This document shows, piece after piece, positions 39,180 through 47,093 of a stretch of 64,000 nt of DNA. The translations under genes and the position numbers were made by a program. The notes beneath the pieces were generated by a model that saw nothing but the letters and a program-made list of their open reading frames with translations, searched no databases and was not told where the DNA came from. Source of the DNA: Candidatus Latescibacterota bacterium (GTDB lineage: Bacteria > Latescibacterota > UBA2968 > UBA8231); contig SLHA01000019.1 of NCBI GenBank assembly GCA_007136405.1, positions 1 to 64,000 of the forward strand, read 5' to 3'. Every line of letters starts with the position of its first letter. The first letter of the stretch is position 1.

Positions 39180-39196
39180 ACAGGTGGTCGGGTCGC

Positions 39197-39225
39197 TTGA
39201 CAGCTCTGCTTCCAGGTCGTATTTT
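39197..39225 (+). promoter_or_regulatory. Promoter of the glycosidase-like gene
   Basis: TTGACA (39197-39202), 17 bp, TATTTT (39220-39225), with the likely start near 39232 and a leader of about 90 nt. Back to back with the promoter of the flavoprotein gene. Confidence 0.65.
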
Positions 39226-39321
39226 GGTGTGAATCCATATATGACGCAACCGCATATGGAGAGCGGGGTTATCTGCTTCGCTCGTTTCCTTGAGTGTCAT
39301 TCTCAGCTAACTGGAGGCCTA

Positions 39322-41685
39322 ATGGGTGCAGCAGCGGCTACTCCGCAGGCCGGGCAGTCACAGCCCTCACCTGGCGTCGGCAACGCGCCATCCGGCCCGC
39401 AGACCGCCCCGTCTCTGTACATGCCCCTCACTACGGATGAAGAAGTACATACCCAGATAGTCAAGGACGGCATCTCGTACGTGTTAGAGAGCCGTTCCGT
39501 GTCCACAGTGTCCCGGTTCATCTACACGCCCATAGACGGAACCTTCGCTGATCTCGAAGTCGAGATCAACAACATGGATCCCCTGCTACCGGGAGACGGT
39601 GGCGGCATCACCGTGCAGATGGCAGGTCAATGCTGGGACGCCACCACAGAGGACATCGAACGCCACTTCGTCTCCTGCGAGCAAGTAGGTGACACGGTTG
39701 AAGCCCGCTGGCAGTGGAAGCATGGAGAGGAACTGGCGGATTTCCTCTTCCGGTTCAGCATAAGCGGAAAATCGTTGATCGTGGAGTTGGAAGGGGGAAG
39801 CGGAAAAGCTACCGGCGTGGATCTTGGATGCGTCTCCGGCCTGGCCAGCGGCCGGCTGATCGAGATCCCGTACCTCGCATTCGGTACCGGCGCTCCGCGC
39901 CTGCTCTGTACGCACGGGGTCTTTGTCTCCAGTTTCCTGGACTGGCAGACCACCCATGCCAGCTGCCTGTACCCTCCAGATCCCACTGACGCCGGCGTGC
40001 CGGCCTTCCGCTTGAACGGCGGCTGCACCTACCTGGAGCGGTCGGACGGGCGGCGCCATTCCCTGCGCGAGCGCTGGATCCTCTCCGCCTCCCGTCGCCT
40101 GGAAGAAGTGTTGCCGGAGTTTCAGGCGGATACGCGGCAGGTACCGGAGGAACTCAAATCGCTGCTCTGGTTCAACATCAACTCCATCGCTCCCAGCGAA
40201 GAAGGCTACGTGGAGATCTTTGAGCAGCTGCGCGAATTCAACAACCTGGGCCTGGACAATGTGCTCGTCAATCATCCTGACGACGTCTGGCATGACGGTG
40301 ACGGCAATGCCACGTTACACCTGACCGGCGCTCCGGAAAAAGGCGGGGATGACGCCCTGGAAGAGTATCTGGATGCCATCCGGGAGCTTGGGTACACCTT
40401 TTCACTTCCCACTGACTACACCCGCATCGGCACTGCCCACCCTGAATGGGAAGCGCAGATGGCCGCGCAGATGCCGGACGGCACCCCGGCACCGGCCGGA
40501 GCCGGCCAATATGTGCTCAGCCACCGTAAGGCGCTTGACGCGTGTGCCGCGCACACGCGTGAACTGGCAGAAAAGTTCAAACCGCCGGTTCTGTACGTGA
40601 GCCGGCATGCCGCTCGGCCGCCGTGGACATTCCTGGATTGTGCCGCAGACTCGGAGGGCGCTGCATCTCTACGCCAGGCGCTGCGTGTTCAACGACAGCT
40701 CCTGGCGGACATCACCGCCAGCTTCCACGGACCGGTGATCGGCGACGGAGGGATGCATTGGTTGTACCCGGGACTGCTGCACGGGCACCTGGCTCGCTTG
40801 TCCGGCATCGCGCCCAGTCACCAGCCGCTCTTGTTGGACTTCGCTTTGCGAAACCTGCACACGGGCCAGGTCAACGCCGGGCTGGGCTCGCCCGAAGATT
40901 TCCACGGCAGCGAGCTCAAGGAAGAAGACCGCAACAGCCGCAGCGCGCTGCTGGACCGCTATCTGGCCACGACGATCGCCTTCGGGCACGTCGGTGTGCT
41001 GCCGGATCCCAATGACTGGGGGCTGGCAGCCGCGGCCAAGGTATACTATATGCTGAATCAGCTCCAGGCCTGTTACGCTGGAGTGCCAGTGGAGTCCATC
41101 CACTATCACCGGGACGGCAACCTGCTGCCGGCCACTGAGGCCGTGGTTTCGGGAGCCTACCAGACCAGTCAGGTCGCCGTGGTATACGCCAACGGTTTGC
41201 AGGTCTTTGTCAACGGTTCGCATGAAGGCGTCTGGCAGATAGAGCACGCAGACCGGTCGTACCTGTTGCCTCCGGCCTCCTTCCTGGCCAGCATGCCGGA
41301 CGGTCCCCTGGTCTATTCGGCGGATACCGGTCTGGGCCGGATCGACATGGCCCAATGCAACGGATACATCTACTGCGATACCCGCCTGAACCGGGTCCAG
41401 GCCGGACCAGTCAAACTGGAGGGCGCCGCCGTGGTCTTCCAACGTGACTGGGAGATCGATGTCCTCCCCGTACAGTGTGCCGGAGAGATAGAGGTCGACG
41501 TTTCCCAACTCTGGCCTGAGCGCAGGCTTCCACCGCTCCGCGTCCTCGCCTTCAAGCCGGAGGAAGAGGAAGGAGAGCCTTTCCGGTCCACCTCGGAACG
41601 GGGGCGGGTAGCCTTCGAACACGTTGATACGTATTGCCGGTACCGTATCACGCTGCCGGAATGGATGGTGGAGCCGGGGCGGTAG
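39322..41685 (+). CDS. Large glycoside-hydrolase-like protein
   Basis: 787 aa, no clear signal peptide. The N-terminal 300 residues look like beta-sandwich carbohydrate-recognition sequence. A TIM-barrel-like core follows, with DNVLVNHPDDVW, PPWTFLDCAAD and GPVIGDGGMHWLYPGLLHG, resembling uncharacterised glycosidase-type barrels from uncultured bacteria; then a beta-rich C-terminus. Probable acidic catalytic residues are the Asp in FLDCAAD and in GDGG, but this is inferred. The ATG at 39322 has GGAGG at 4-5 nt. Confidence 0.7.
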   Translation: MGAAAATPQAGQSQPSPGVGNAPSGPQTAPSLYMPLTTDEEVHTQIVKDGISYVLESRSVSTVSRFIYTPIDGTFADLEVEINNMDPLLPGDGGGITVQMAGQCWDATTEDIERHFVSCEQVGDTVEARWQWKHGEELADFLFRFSISGKSLIVELEGGSGKATGVDLGCVSGLASGRLIEIPYLAFGTGAPRLLCTHGVFVSSFLDWQTTHASCLYPPDPTDAGVPAFRLNGGCTYLERSDGRRHSLRERWILSASRRLEEVLPEFQADTRQVPEELKSLLWFNINSIAPSEEGYVEIFEQLREFNNLGLDNVLVNHPDDVWHDGDGNATLHLTGAPEKGGDDALEEYLDAIRELGYTFSLPTDYTRIGTAHPEWEAQMAAQMPDGTPAPAGAGQYVLSHRKALDACAAHTRELAEKFKPPVLYVSRHAARPPWTFLDCAADSEGAASLRQALRVQRQLLADITASFHGPVIGDGGMHWLYPGLLHGHLARLSGIAPSHQPLLLDFALRNLHTGQVNAGLGSPEDFHGSELKEEDRNSRSALLDRYLATTIAFGHVGVLPDPNDWGLAAAAKVYYMLNQLQACYAGVPVESIHYHRDGNLLPATEAVVSGAYQTSQVAVVYANGLQVFVNGSHEGVWQIEHADRSYLLPPASFLASMPDGPLVYSADTGLGRIDMAQCNGYIYCDTRLNRVQAGPVKLEGAAVVFQRDWEIDVLPVQCAGEIEVDVSQLWPERRLPPLRVLAFKPEEEEGEPFRSTSERGRVAFEHVDTYCRYRITLPEWMVEPGR

Positions 41686-43143: not shown

Positions 43144-43635
43144 TCAGGGTTGCCACGTGAACCGGTTTTCCTGCCAGGCGCCGATGGTAACCGGCGGGTC
43201 GTCCCATTCTGGACCCGGCCCCCGGAATACTCCGATGAAGTCCTTGTCGGGCTCATACCGGTTCCACAGCGCCGGAAAATCCTCCTCCAGCAGGCGCTCC
43301 ACCTGGTTGCGTATTCCCTCGGCGTGGTAGGTCATGATCTCCTCGGCCTGTTCACGATCGACCGTCTCGGTCAGATGATCCGCCAGACCACTGCTGGCCA
43401 GAAATTCAAAGGCTATCCGGCGGTCTTCGTCCAGGGCGACATAAACGCGGTACGCAGGAAAGCTGAGGCGCTGACCCAGCACCTCCAGGCGCAGCTTCAA
43501 CCAGTCGGCGTGGGTGAGTACGCGAGTCGAATCCAGCCCCTCCCAGTCAAGATCCGCCCGCACTGCGGCAGGCCACCCGGTGCCGAGAACCAGTATACAG
43601 CAAACCGCACCCCGGAACGTCCATTTCCTAATCAT
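43144..43635 (-). CDS. Secreted hypothetical protein, 163 aa
   Basis: N-terminal signal peptide (MIRKWTFRGAVCCILVLGTG, predicted cut after AVRA). The mature part is Asp/Glu/Arg-rich with WNRYEPDKDFIGVFRGPGPEWDD near the C-terminus. AGGAGG precedes the ATG at 7 nt. No family recognised; likely periplasmic. Confidence 0.8.
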   Translation of the reverse strand: MIRKWTFRGAVCCILVLGTGWPAAVRADLDWEGLDSTRVLTHADWLKLRLEVLGQRLSFPAYRVYVALDEDRRIAFEFLASSGLADHLTETVDREQAEEIMTYHAEGIRNQVERLLEEDFPALWNRYEPDKDFIGVFRGPGPEWDDPPVTIGAWQENRFTWQP

Positions 43636-43784: not shown

Positions 43785-46022
43785 CTATGCCGCCGCGACC
43801 GGGCCGCCTTGCAGGACCGGTGAACAGCCACTGGAGAATTCGATCAGGCAGTCAGCTGCCTCCAGCAGCAGTTGGTCATGGTCTGCTACGACAACCGTGG
43901 CGCCGGCACAGGTGCTGGCGCGCAAGGCGGTAATCAAGGCCTCCACGTCCTGTTCGTGTTCACCGGCTGCCGGTAGATCGAGCGTGATCAGATCCCGCCT
44001 GCCCAGACGCGGCAACTCGCGGGCGAGTTGGAGTCGTAGGCGCTCGGCCCGTTCCAGTGAACCCGTGCCGGAACCCAGAGGCAGATGTCCCAGACCGCAA
44101 CGCAGGGCCGCGTCCAGCCTCTTTCCCAGGCTGCGCTCGCGCTGTAACCACTGTGCTGCGGTTTCCACCGTCTGGACCAGCACCTCGCTGATGCGGTAAC
44201 CTCGCACCGTAGCCTCGTCCACGTCCTCCCGGAATCGGCGCCCCTGACATTGCGGGCAGCTGATGGTCAGATCCTCGAGAAAGTCCATGTCGTAGTGCAG
44301 CACTCCCATCCCTTCGCATCGCGTGCAGCGCCCACCTGGAGCATCGAGGCGAAACCACTCCAGCGGATATCCGCGACGTTGCGCCACCGGCGATGCGGCG
44401 AACAGGCGGGCGATGCCTTCTCCCAGCCCCAGATGCAACAACACCGCGACATCCGGGCGGCTAGATGTATCATCGATACAAAGGGCGCGGACCAGGCCGC
44501 GATGTCCCCTGAACACCAGGCTCTGTCCGTGTCGCGCCCGCCCCTTCAGCGCCGGTAGAAGCAGATCGTCGATGAACCGGGTTTTACCGCTGCCGGACGG
44601 ACCGGCCAGGGCGATGAGCGTCCCCATAGGCAGCAACAGGTCAACAGGCCCTGAGGGCGGCAGGGCCGGTGCCGTCAGGTGAAGCAGGCCGGCGCCGGCA
44701 TTCCGGCCCGACACGCACCCGCCGGCTGGCGCCACTTCCGGGGACCCCACGGTCTGGTTTGCGGCGAAGTCAACCACCTGGTCGGCCGCCTCACGGATGG
44801 CTTTACCCCCATTCACCACGACCACCGTGTTGCCGTGATCCACCAACTGACGCAGGGCCTGCACTAGATCGGGAAGGTCCAGCGCATGCATCAGTCCGCC
44901 CAATCCTTCGAAAACATACAGCATACCCATCAACCCGGTGCTCAGACACCGAGCCAGCGCCATGCGCACGCGCTCGCCGTCAGCCATGTGCGCCACCTGG
45001 CGCTCCAGGGGCAGCCCGCCCAGTCCCAATCTGCCGGCGATGTGCATTCGATGCCGCAGCTCCGCCGCCGGTCCGTCGGCACGGGTCCACCGCTCCAGGT
45101 GTGCCTGCAGCTCATCCAGGGTCATGCGGCGCATGCCCGTGATACTGGTATCTCCCAGCAGAACACCATCGCTGAGCGGGTGCCGGTCCGCATGGCCCGA
45201 CAGCAGATCATCGGGAGTCGGCCGAGGGTGGATGGTGGCGCAGCCGGTGCAGGTCAACTGCTGGTTCAGCCAGAGCTGCCGCCCCGTATCGATGGCCTCT
45301 ACCAGGCATCGACCACCGGATACGGCCCGTGCATTGCGAACCGCCTCCAGCAGACGCGATGAAAGCGCAGTCCCCGGTTGGAGGCGATCGACGACGATCT
45401 CCATTTTCGAGCACGCCGTTACCGCCGCCTCGACGTTCGGACTGTCCAGACGGACCACCTGTCCATCCAGGCGCAGACGGGCAAACCCGGCCCCTCGTAT
45501 CTCCGCCACCAGCTCCCGGTCGTCGACGGTTCCGCGGCTGTAGGGCGCCAGAAAAAGGCACCGTTCCTCCGGCATCTCCGCCGCCACCAGCCGGGCCGCG
45601 GCGTCCGCGCTCAACGCACGACAGGACTCCCCGCAGAGCGGACACTGGATGCGTCCCTCGTCATGCAGCAGCTGGCATAGAGATTCTTCGAGCTGTAGTG
45701 CACGGCCCAGGTTCCCGTCTCTCCGGTGTGAACGGCAGTCCACATGGACCGCCGGCGGCAAGCCGGAGATGGATTCCACCGCGACCTGTTCGAGTCCCCC
45801 CAGACCGGCGCGTTCGCCGGGTGCCAGGGCGAGCAGGTACTTTCTCCGGCTTTCCGCTACCAGCACATCCACGGCCATGGTGCGAGCGCCCGCTCCTGCC
45901 GGTCCACGCAGGCAGATCAGGGCGTTGCGTCGGATGCGTATGCTGGCTCCCCGCAGCACGCCTTCGTTGGCGTCCAGGACCTGAATGGATGGTATGCTCT
46001 GGTCATGCGTTGGCGACATCAC
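43785..46022 (-). CDS. Degenerate UvrA-like ABC protein
   Basis: 745 aa protein that aligns along most of UvrA (usual length about 940) but with damaged ATPase sites. First Walker A is GPAGAGART (40-48), where the Lys is Ala and the Ser is Arg. The first signature is MADGE (346-350) and its Walker B is YVFEGLG. The second Walker A GPSGSGKT (474-481) is intact and a C-X2-C pair set (566/569, 589/592) keeps the UvrA zinc finger. The second signature is replaced by GTGSLERAE and the catalytic Glu after Asp682 is Leu683. His715 of the H loop remains. Start GTG 46022 lies 2 nt after the HTH-MBL gene. A role in DNA repair is doubtful; it may bind DNA without hydrolysing ATP normally. Confidence 0.85.
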   Translation of the reverse strand: MMSPTHDQSIPSIQVLDANEGVLRGASIRIRRNALICLRGPAGAGARTMAVDVLVAESRRKYLLALAPGERAGLGGLEQVAVESISGLPPAVHVDCRSHRRDGNLGRALQLEESLCQLLHDEGRIQCPLCGESCRALSADAAARLVAAEMPEERCLFLAPYSRGTVDDRELVAEIRGAGFARLRLDGQVVRLDSPNVEAAVTACSKMEIVVDRLQPGTALSSRLLEAVRNARAVSGGRCLVEAIDTGRQLWLNQQLTCTGCATIHPRPTPDDLLSGHADRHPLSDGVLLGDTSITGMRRMTLDELQAHLERWTRADGPAAELRHRMHIAGRLGLGGLPLERQVAHMADGERVRMALARCLSTGLMGMLYVFEGLGGLMHALDLPDLVQALRQLVDHGNTVVVVNGGKAIREAADQVVDFAANQTVGSPEVAPAGGCVSGRNAGAGLLHLTAPALPPSGPVDLLLPMGTLIALAGPSGSGKTRFIDDLLLPALKGRARHGQSLVFRGHRGLVRALCIDDTSSRPDVAVLLHLGLGEGIARLFAASPVAQRRGYPLEWFRLDAPGGRCTRCEGMGVLHYDMDFLEDLTISCPQCQGRRFREDVDEATVRGYRISEVLVQTVETAAQWLQRERSLGKRLDAALRCGLGHLPLGSGTGSLERAERLRLQLARELPRLGRRDLITLDLPAAGEHEQDVEALITALRASTCAGATVVVADHDQLLLEAADCLIEFSSGCSPVLQGGPVAAA

Positions 46023-46024
46023 GA

Positions 46025-46870
46025 TCAGCGAAAAAACGGATTGTTCGCTTTCTCTTCTCCGACAGTGGTGGCCGGCCCGTGTCCGGGATACAGCACTACA
46101 TGATCTTCCAGCGAAAGCAGATAGCGGGAGACGCCGTCGATCTGCCCGAAATAGCGCTCCCGGCTTCGCGTGCCGCCCAGGGAACCGGCGAACAGAATGT
46201 CTCCCACAAAAGCGGCCTGCGCGTGAATCAGGCAGATGCAGCCAGCGGTGTGTCCGGGAATACTGCGCACAAGCAGACGCTGGCCACCCACGGTGATGGT
46301 CTCGTCTGCGGCGATTTCGCCGTCAACCAGGTCTTGCAGCCCTTTCTGGGCAGCCAGGTCAGCCGGGTGTATCCTGGCCGGCGCGCCAGTGGCGGCGCGA
46401 ATGGCGGCCAGCGCCCCGGTGTGATCCTGGTGGCCGTGGGTCATGAGAATCTGGTCGATCCGCAGCCCCGCACGGTTCACGGCCTGCATGAGGCTGTCCG
46501 CGTCAGCACCGGGATCTATGACAGCGCCGGTTCCTGTTTGACGACAACCGATGACATATCCGTTGACGTTGAAGGACTGGCCCAGATTCAGCATCTGTAC
46601 CATCAAAACACCATGGTCGGTGCCGCATGGCGCCGCGGGGAAGAAGGTCTCCTGAGCGCTGCCCTGCAGTTTGGCCGCATCCAGCCCCAGAGCATCGGCC
46701 AGGCGGCGAACAACCTGCGAATCCGGGATCGTCTCGTACCGTTCGATGGCCGCCAGCGTTGCCGTGCTGATGCCGGCTCGAGCAGCCAGGTCATCCGGCG
46801 TGATCTCCTGCCCGCGACGCGCCTTGCCGACGACATCGCCGAACTCATCCTCGAGTGTCTGCCAGTCCAT
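46025..46870 (-). CDS. HTH-metallo-beta-lactamase fusion protein
   Basis: 281 aa: an N-terminal XRE-type helix-turn-helix (about residues 23-65, LAARAGISTATLAAIERYE) fused to a glyoxalase-II-like metallo-beta-lactamase domain. The zinc motif is THGHQDH (144-150), with further ligands in IPGHTAG, FVGDILFAG and LYPGHGPAT. It probably hydrolyses a small thioester, lactone or related bond, and may regulate its own operon. The ATG at 46870 has AAGGAG at 6 nt. The UvrA-like gene follows after 2 nt. Confidence 0.85.
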   Translation of the reverse strand: MDWQTLEDEFGDVVGKARRGQEITPDDLAARAGISTATLAAIERYETIPDSQVVRRLADALGLDAAKLQGSAQETFFPAAPCGTDHGVLMVQMLNLGQSFNVNGYVIGCRQTGTGAVIDPGADADSLMQAVNRAGLRIDQILMTHGHQDHTGALAAIRAATGAPARIHPADLAAQKGLQDLVDGEIAADETITVGGQRLLVRSIPGHTAGCICLIHAQAAFVGDILFAGSLGGTRSRERYFGQIDGVSRYLLSLEDHVVLYPGHGPATTVGEEKANNPFFR

Positions 46871-47093
46871 AGCCAACTCCTTTTCGGCAGATCATCGCGC
46901 CGCGCCACTTCCCGTACCATGAGTCTGCCTATGGTGAAGGATCTTGCTCGGCAATACCGGGTGTGCATAGGTTGGAAACAAGGCCCGCCGCTCAGGGCTC
47001 AGGGCCCTGGACAACGCTGTCCCGGTGTGCGAACCGTTGCCTTCCGGCCCTGCCTGCCCGGGAAAGAGTCTCTTCCGGCATCGTTCCGGCGGC

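Follow-up and report, generated by a model that had tools for sequence, protein, structure and literature searches.

The window, the whole 64,000-nucleotide stretch of the Candidatus Latescibacterota genome analysed here, carries on its reverse strand a gene whose product is a UvrA-derived paralogue (Table 1). When its full frame was read, the gene proved to be an uninterrupted open reading frame of 745 amino acids, in agreement with the earlier note, and the upstream gene ends only a few bases ahead of the ATG that follows the GTG start. The protein matched the NCBIfam UvrA model TIGR00630 with 314.4 bits (E = 1.8e-93; cut-off of 729.8 bits not reached) and the Pfam UvrA_inter model with 51.3 bits (over its cut-off of 23.3), and a UvrA fold with two ABC modules is present, as indicated by the TIGR00630 match and by top PDB matches that are all UvrA (TMq up to 0.74). 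The UvrA layout that had been described is kept in part, with a UvrB-binding domain present but the whole insertion domain absent. The zinc-finger cysteines said to be retained are likewise those of Zn1 and Zn3, but not those of Zn2.

Table 1 Positions in the window of the UvrA-like gene, its motifs and domains, and neighbouring genes. Residues are those of the window protein; fractions are counts among full-length orthologues unless stated otherwise.
Feature	Position	Strand	Observation
UvrA-like gene (pseudo-ATPase by motif)	43785..46022	-	745 codons; GTG start, second codon ATG; orthologues in 25/25 family genomes
Degenerate Walker A1, residues 40-47, GPAGAGAR	45882..45905	-	K37 equivalent is A46; K in 0/24 orthologues vs 44/44 other UvrAs
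Zn1 first half, C127, C130 and family-specific C134	45621..45644	-	24/24
UvrB-binding domain, residues about 138-255, PF17760	45258..45611	-	Pfam E 1.2e-13; 3fpn/4dfc fold match TMt 0.76-0.79; pLDDT mostly 77-89
UvrB/Mfd-facing helix, residues 221-235	45318..45362	-	R223 (=R216), E226, R229 (=E222), R232 (=L225), each 24/24; helix predicted
Zn1 second half, C258, C261	45240..45251	-	24/24
Short linker, residues 269-318, replacing Zn2 and insertion domain of UvrA (E. coli 277-409)	45069..45218	-	domain absent 24/24; alignment to solved UvrA
Signature I, MADGE, residues 346-350	44973..44987	-	G349 23/24, E350 24/24, S 11/24
Degenerate Walker B1, residues 368-374, LYVFEGL	44901..44921	-	D 2/24, E 1/24
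Intact Walker A2, residues 474-481, GPSGSGKT	44580..44603	-	K480 (= E. coli K646) 24/24
Former DNA-binding arginine segment, residues 538-556	44355..44411	-	A538 = R712, W556 = R730; R712 to A 24/24, R730 0/24
Zn3 module with acidic hairpin, residues 566-592	44247..44327	-	4 Cys 24/24; P757 to E/D 24/24
Degenerate signature II, LERAE, residues 656-660	44043..44057	-	S831 0/24
Walker B2 without catalytic Glu, LDLP, residues 681-684	43971..43982	-	D/E at D857 23/24; E858 2/24
XRE-type/metallo-beta-lactamase fusion gene	46025..46876	-	directly upstream of UvrA-like gene
Small protein gene	43144..43635	-	likely signal peptide; no confident family match
833-aa protein gene	39184..41685	+	no Pfam match; adjoins hemE

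Gene order around the paralogue was compared across 23 loci, where korA was found at 17, hemE at 15 and korB at 13; korA and korB encode a 2-oxoacid:ferredoxin oxidoreductase and are syntenic with the paralogue in relatives. In the window, hemE lies near the UvrA-like gene and korAB is not adjacent. In relatives, korAB sits between the UvrA-like gene and a small protein gene resembling by eye the one listed in Table 1, the interval from which korAB is missing in the window. The gene directly upstream encodes an XRE-type helix-turn-helix fused to a glyoxalase-II-like metallo-beta-lactamase domain, and its cluster recurs at 11 of the compared loci, while that of the 833-aa protein recurs at 12. 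The neighbours examined included no recognisable gene for NER, other repair or intercalator synthesis.

Using a profile of 16 orthologues at the same threshold throughout, the paralogue was found as a single copy in all 25 genomes of the host's taxonomic family (one copy being cut by a contig end) and in none of 39 other genomes of the phylum. When placed in a tree alongside 44 further UvrA sequences, the full-length members (n = 24) formed one group with 100% support and evolved faster than the other UvrAs. We take the paralogue to stem from a UvrA duplication that is old in this family. The family alignment, used as a profile against IMG/VR, returned no relative; the canonical-rich alignment A1, also used in a scan, returned 13 loci encoding UvrA relatives, whose sequences were added to deepen the alignment. 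No description of such a UvrA form was found in the open-licence literature searched. The host genome (G000; 4.29 Mb, 87% complete) encodes one other UvrA that was found, at contig C21, with intact Walker motifs. This 920-aa protein (L042) has a signature I of LSSGE and a Zn3 hairpin that is unusual relative to other UvrAs of the phylum, and its form was seen, among the sampled genomes, only in the host's family. Genomes of the host's class encode several kinds of UvrA side by side, of 920 aa, of 960-1000 aa and as tandem proteins of about 1900 aa.

The paralogue is under purifying constraint. Pairwise dN/dS between close species was 0.09-0.25; in those of the genomes for which the 920-aa UvrA could also be compared, that protein gave 0.084-0.136. 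The earlier note had described maintained degeneration as opposed to a decaying pseudogene, and had proposed checking that the lost residues are also lost in orthologues at dN/dS below 1; both hold, apart from two orthologues described below, as the same pattern recurs, not by chance, in the 24 full-length orthologues and the gene is present once in every family genome. The opposite explanation, a decaying gene or an assembly artefact, could draw on the many lost catalytic residues and the faster evolution, but is refuted for practical purposes by the 25/25 presence in one copy each, the intact frames in all full-length members and these dN/dS values.

Motifs were read against E. coli K-12 UvrA (NC_000913), whose numbering is used for equivalent residues, and counted in the 24 full-length orthologues, leaving aside the truncated 25th copy. 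The Walker A1 stretch of the window protein reads GPAGAGART, and the first Walker A lysine is lost, as had been claimed; it is also absent from every other full-length member of the family. The second Walker A motif is intact, again as claimed, and its lysine is followed by Thr or Ser in all 24 orthologues; the loss is therefore selective in the sense originally meant. Relative to E. coli UvrA, LSGGE has become MADGE in signature I and LERAE in signature II, so the consensus is gone from both, but the earlier statement that both signatures are lost goes too far for signature I, which still has its Gly-Glu. Similarly, the first Walker B acidic pair (DE513/514) is represented by E372-G373, in which the catalytic Glu is gone but one acid remains, as Glu for Asp. 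The second pair (DE857/858) is represented by D682-L683, consistent with the reported loss of the second catalytic Glu. In two orthologues (L007 and L008), signature I reads LSGGE and Walker B2 reads LIDEP, so both motifs are intact there. Intact motifs, which the earlier note had named as evidence against its reading, are thus found in part, but the Walker A1 lysine and the signature II serine are retained by none of the 24.

Two competent ATP sites are not present in this family, given the Walker A1 lysine (0/24), the signature II serine (0/24) and the Walker B2 Glu (2/24). Judged by these residues, the proximal site, formed by ATP-binding domain I and signature II, is dismantled, while at the distal site, formed by ATP-binding domain II and signature I, the P-loop and the acid that binds Mg remain, the catalytic Glu is missing from most members (2/24 retain it) and the Q-loop Gln is found in none of the orthologues. 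One site without binding residues alongside another with its P-loop, maintained across orthologues, is the pattern of a pseudo-ATPase, and by motif the protein is a conserved, selected, single-copy, UvrA-derived member of that category. In Geobacillus stearothermophilus UvrA, the K37A mutant shows normal nucleotide binding at the distal site and almost no ATPase activity (PMC6486640). Because the distal binding residues are kept, and given the behaviour of this mutant, we infer that the UvrA-like protein should hold nucleotide with little turnover.

The DNA-binding side is also altered. In addition to the invariant Ala at R712 and the universal loss of R730, the DNA-binding arginines R722 and R724 are kept in only 5/24 and 9/24 orthologues, and the mean net charge of this segment is +0.9, compared with +6.3 in other UvrAs and +3.4 in the 920-aa type. 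The Zn3 module retains its cysteines (C566, C569, C589 and C592), but its hairpin is acidic at two positions, with Glu or Asp replacing H754 in 23/24 orthologues as well as P757 in all. Loss of the insertion domain would not be decisive alone, since a G. stearothermophilus UvrA devoid of it reportedly still functions in vitro (PMC3025350), although Ecm16 lacking this domain does not bind DNA (PMC10192343). In E. coli, the quadruple mutant of R712, R722, R724 and R730 has undetectable global and transcription-coupled repair (PMC3025350). Taking the insertion-domain and arginine losses together, ordinary UvrA-type DNA binding appears unlikely, and the DNA-binding sensor suggested by the earlier note is not supported: the deleted insertion domain, the lost R712 and R730 and the acidic Zn3 hairpin speak against it.

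The side facing UvrB and Mfd has been retained in altered form. R216 and E222, the two residues mutated in E. coli to disrupt the UvrB face, have different fates here: R216 is kept in every orthologue, whereas E222 is replaced by Arg in all of them, as is L225. Together with E226 (E. coli E219) and R191, the resulting R229 and R232 form a set of invariant charges, all within the UvrB-binding domain, that the 920-aa type does not share and that other UvrAs do not have as a rule. A first AlphaFold model, built from a 5-sequence alignment, had a pLDDT of 57 and unreliable domain packing; a second, built from 15 sequences, had a mean pLDDT of 73, placed three of these four residues on helix 221-235, and found its best PDB match in the UvrA of the UvrA-UvrB complex 3uwx (TMq 0.73). 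These features suggest a partner interface that was kept as a contact surface but remodelled. In the host genome, PF17757, the model of the UvrA-binding domain, matched one UvrB-sized and one Mfd-sized protein and no others. In the readable UvrB domain-2 sequences there was no obvious change compensating for the charge-swapped helix, and UvrB of the family keeps its usual RVRG segment. As a separate observation, R216 is replaced by Gln in 9 of 32 non-920 sequences, a number equal to that of the 960-1000-aa sequences (n = 9), one of which was seen with Gln; that UvrA form may also be UvrB-independent.

Constraint was further compared by domain between the paralogue and the 920-aa UvrA within one genus, using pooled pairwise counts that are descriptive and carry no formal test. 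Values of dN/dS were 0.147 versus 0.033 from Walker B1 to the H-switch, 0.228 versus 0.056 from Walker B2 to the H-switch, and 0.087 versus 0.020 in the DNA segment preceding Zn3 (signature II region). Signature I gave 0.165 versus 0.096, the UvrB-binding domain 0.135 versus 0.124, Zn3 0.073 versus 0.062 and ATP-binding domain I 0.071 versus 0.078. Constraint on the UvrB-binding domain and Zn3 is thus not relaxed, whereas in the Walker B and DNA-contact segments it is weaker by a factor of about 4; relaxation is therefore concentrated at sites of catalysis and DNA contact. The UvrB-binding domain was also considered as the most conserved part of the protein, an idea dropped because percent identity favours Zn3 and gives the UvrB domain a modest edge only, for which reason the domain dN/dS is relied on here. 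The normal constraint on the UvrB-binding domain and Zn3 fits a scaffold, the other role that had been proposed, better than a sensor.

The combination of domains, as read from the alignment, is unlike that of either recognised UvrA class. With class I UvrAs (E. coli, G. stearothermophilus) the paralogue shares the fold, two ABC modules, UvrB-binding domain, Zn1, Zn3 and Walker A2, but it lacks the insertion domain with Zn2, the proximal ATP site and the DNA-groove arginines, has lost the distal catalytic Glu in 22/24 members, and carries Arg at E222 of the UvrB face. ABC proteins with one degenerate site, of the TAP and CFTR type, are similar in having one dead composite site and another with a P-loop; however, the better site of the paralogue also lacks its catalytic Glu in most members, and the protein is not a transporter. 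Class II UvrAs (Deinococcus radiodurans UvrA2, Ecm16, DrrC) are likewise UvrA folds shortened by one domain, but they keep the insertion domain and lack the UvrB-binding domain and Zn1 (PMC10192343), the reverse of the arrangement seen here, and Ecm16 is an active ATPase while the ATPase motifs of the paralogue are degenerate. The laboratory mutants K37A and delta290-400 of E. coli UvrA offer another comparison, as this family naturally carries both losses at once, in addition to lacking the DNA-binding arginines and Walker B acids.

The explanation we favour, with a confidence slightly short of even, is that a duplicated UvrA has become a nucleotide-binding, hydrolysis-dead and DNA-blind pseudo-ATPase that acts through protein contacts, most likely with UvrB and/or Mfd. 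Such a protein would retain ATP or ADP in its distal site while hydrolysing little or none of it, and would not itself bind lesion DNA. As a regulator, it would most likely dock on UvrB, Mfd or both, or else on a specialised protein sharing that fold, and might serve as a decoy, holdback or recruiter that tunes the timing of UvrB handover. Against this, the canonical surface for UvrB contact carries new charges through E222R and L225R, and the partner may therefore be a protein other than UvrB; the conserved neighbourhood also contains no recognised NER gene.

Two alternatives with different partners are each rather unlikely. In the first, the paralogue would form an obligate heterodimer with the family's 920-aa UvrA via ATP-binding domain I. 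The resulting damage sensor would be asymmetric, an active half being joined to an inactive one in the manner of ABC proteins that have a single degenerate site. ATP-binding domain I is as constrained as in the active UvrA, the 920-aa form is itself diverged and restricted to the host's family in our sample, and these are the only two UvrAs found in the host genome; however, further UvrAs may be missing from that incomplete assembly, and half of the heterodimer's DNA groove would be neutral because the arginines on the paralogue side are lost. The second, to which we give a similarly low probability, places the partner outside NER, with the UvrB-type interface now directed at some other protein that may be connected with the korAB/hemE block. 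The invariant E222R and L225R, the further family arginine R191 and the conserved synteny with korA are consistent with this, but korAB is not adjacent in the window, synteny in a slowly rearranging block need not imply function, and PF17757 matches in family genomes number at most two each, of UvrB and Mfd size.

A UvrA dedicated to transcription-coupled repair is less probable again. The insertion domain and proximal ATPase are less needed in E. coli for Mfd-dependent than for global repair, the K37A and delta290-400 mutants favour the template strand more strongly (PMC3025350), both losses are universal in the paralogue family, and Mfd is present. This candidate was nevertheless demoted, as DNA binding through R712, R722, R724 and R730 is essential for both pathways (PMC3025350) and R712 and R730 are lost in all 24 orthologues. 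A role as DNA-binding sensor, or as a drug-resistance UvrA resembling UvrA2, DrrC and Ecm16, for which the conserved UvrA fold and zinc modules could speak, is very improbable given the reversed class II architecture, the absence of the domain that Ecm16 requires to bind DNA (PMC10192343) and the lack of recognised intercalator biosynthesis genes nearby.

In its broader form, the pseudo-ATPase explanation would make this family a third UvrA architecture, DNA-blind, hydrolysis-dead and nucleotide-binding, that would regulate UvrB, Mfd or both, or else UvrA itself, through protein contacts and has gone to fixation in a single family belonging to a small phylum, a proposal we advance only tentatively. 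In E. coli, loss of K37 or of the insertion domain shifts repair toward the transcribed strand (PMC3025350), and this family, in which both losses are combined, offers a direct way of testing what the proximal ATP site and the UvrB/Mfd face do. If the proposal is true, the paralogue would be a natural 'separation of function' UvrA in which partner binding has been split from DNA binding and ATP turnover, and bacterial excision repair would have a conserved regulatory pseudo-ATPase.
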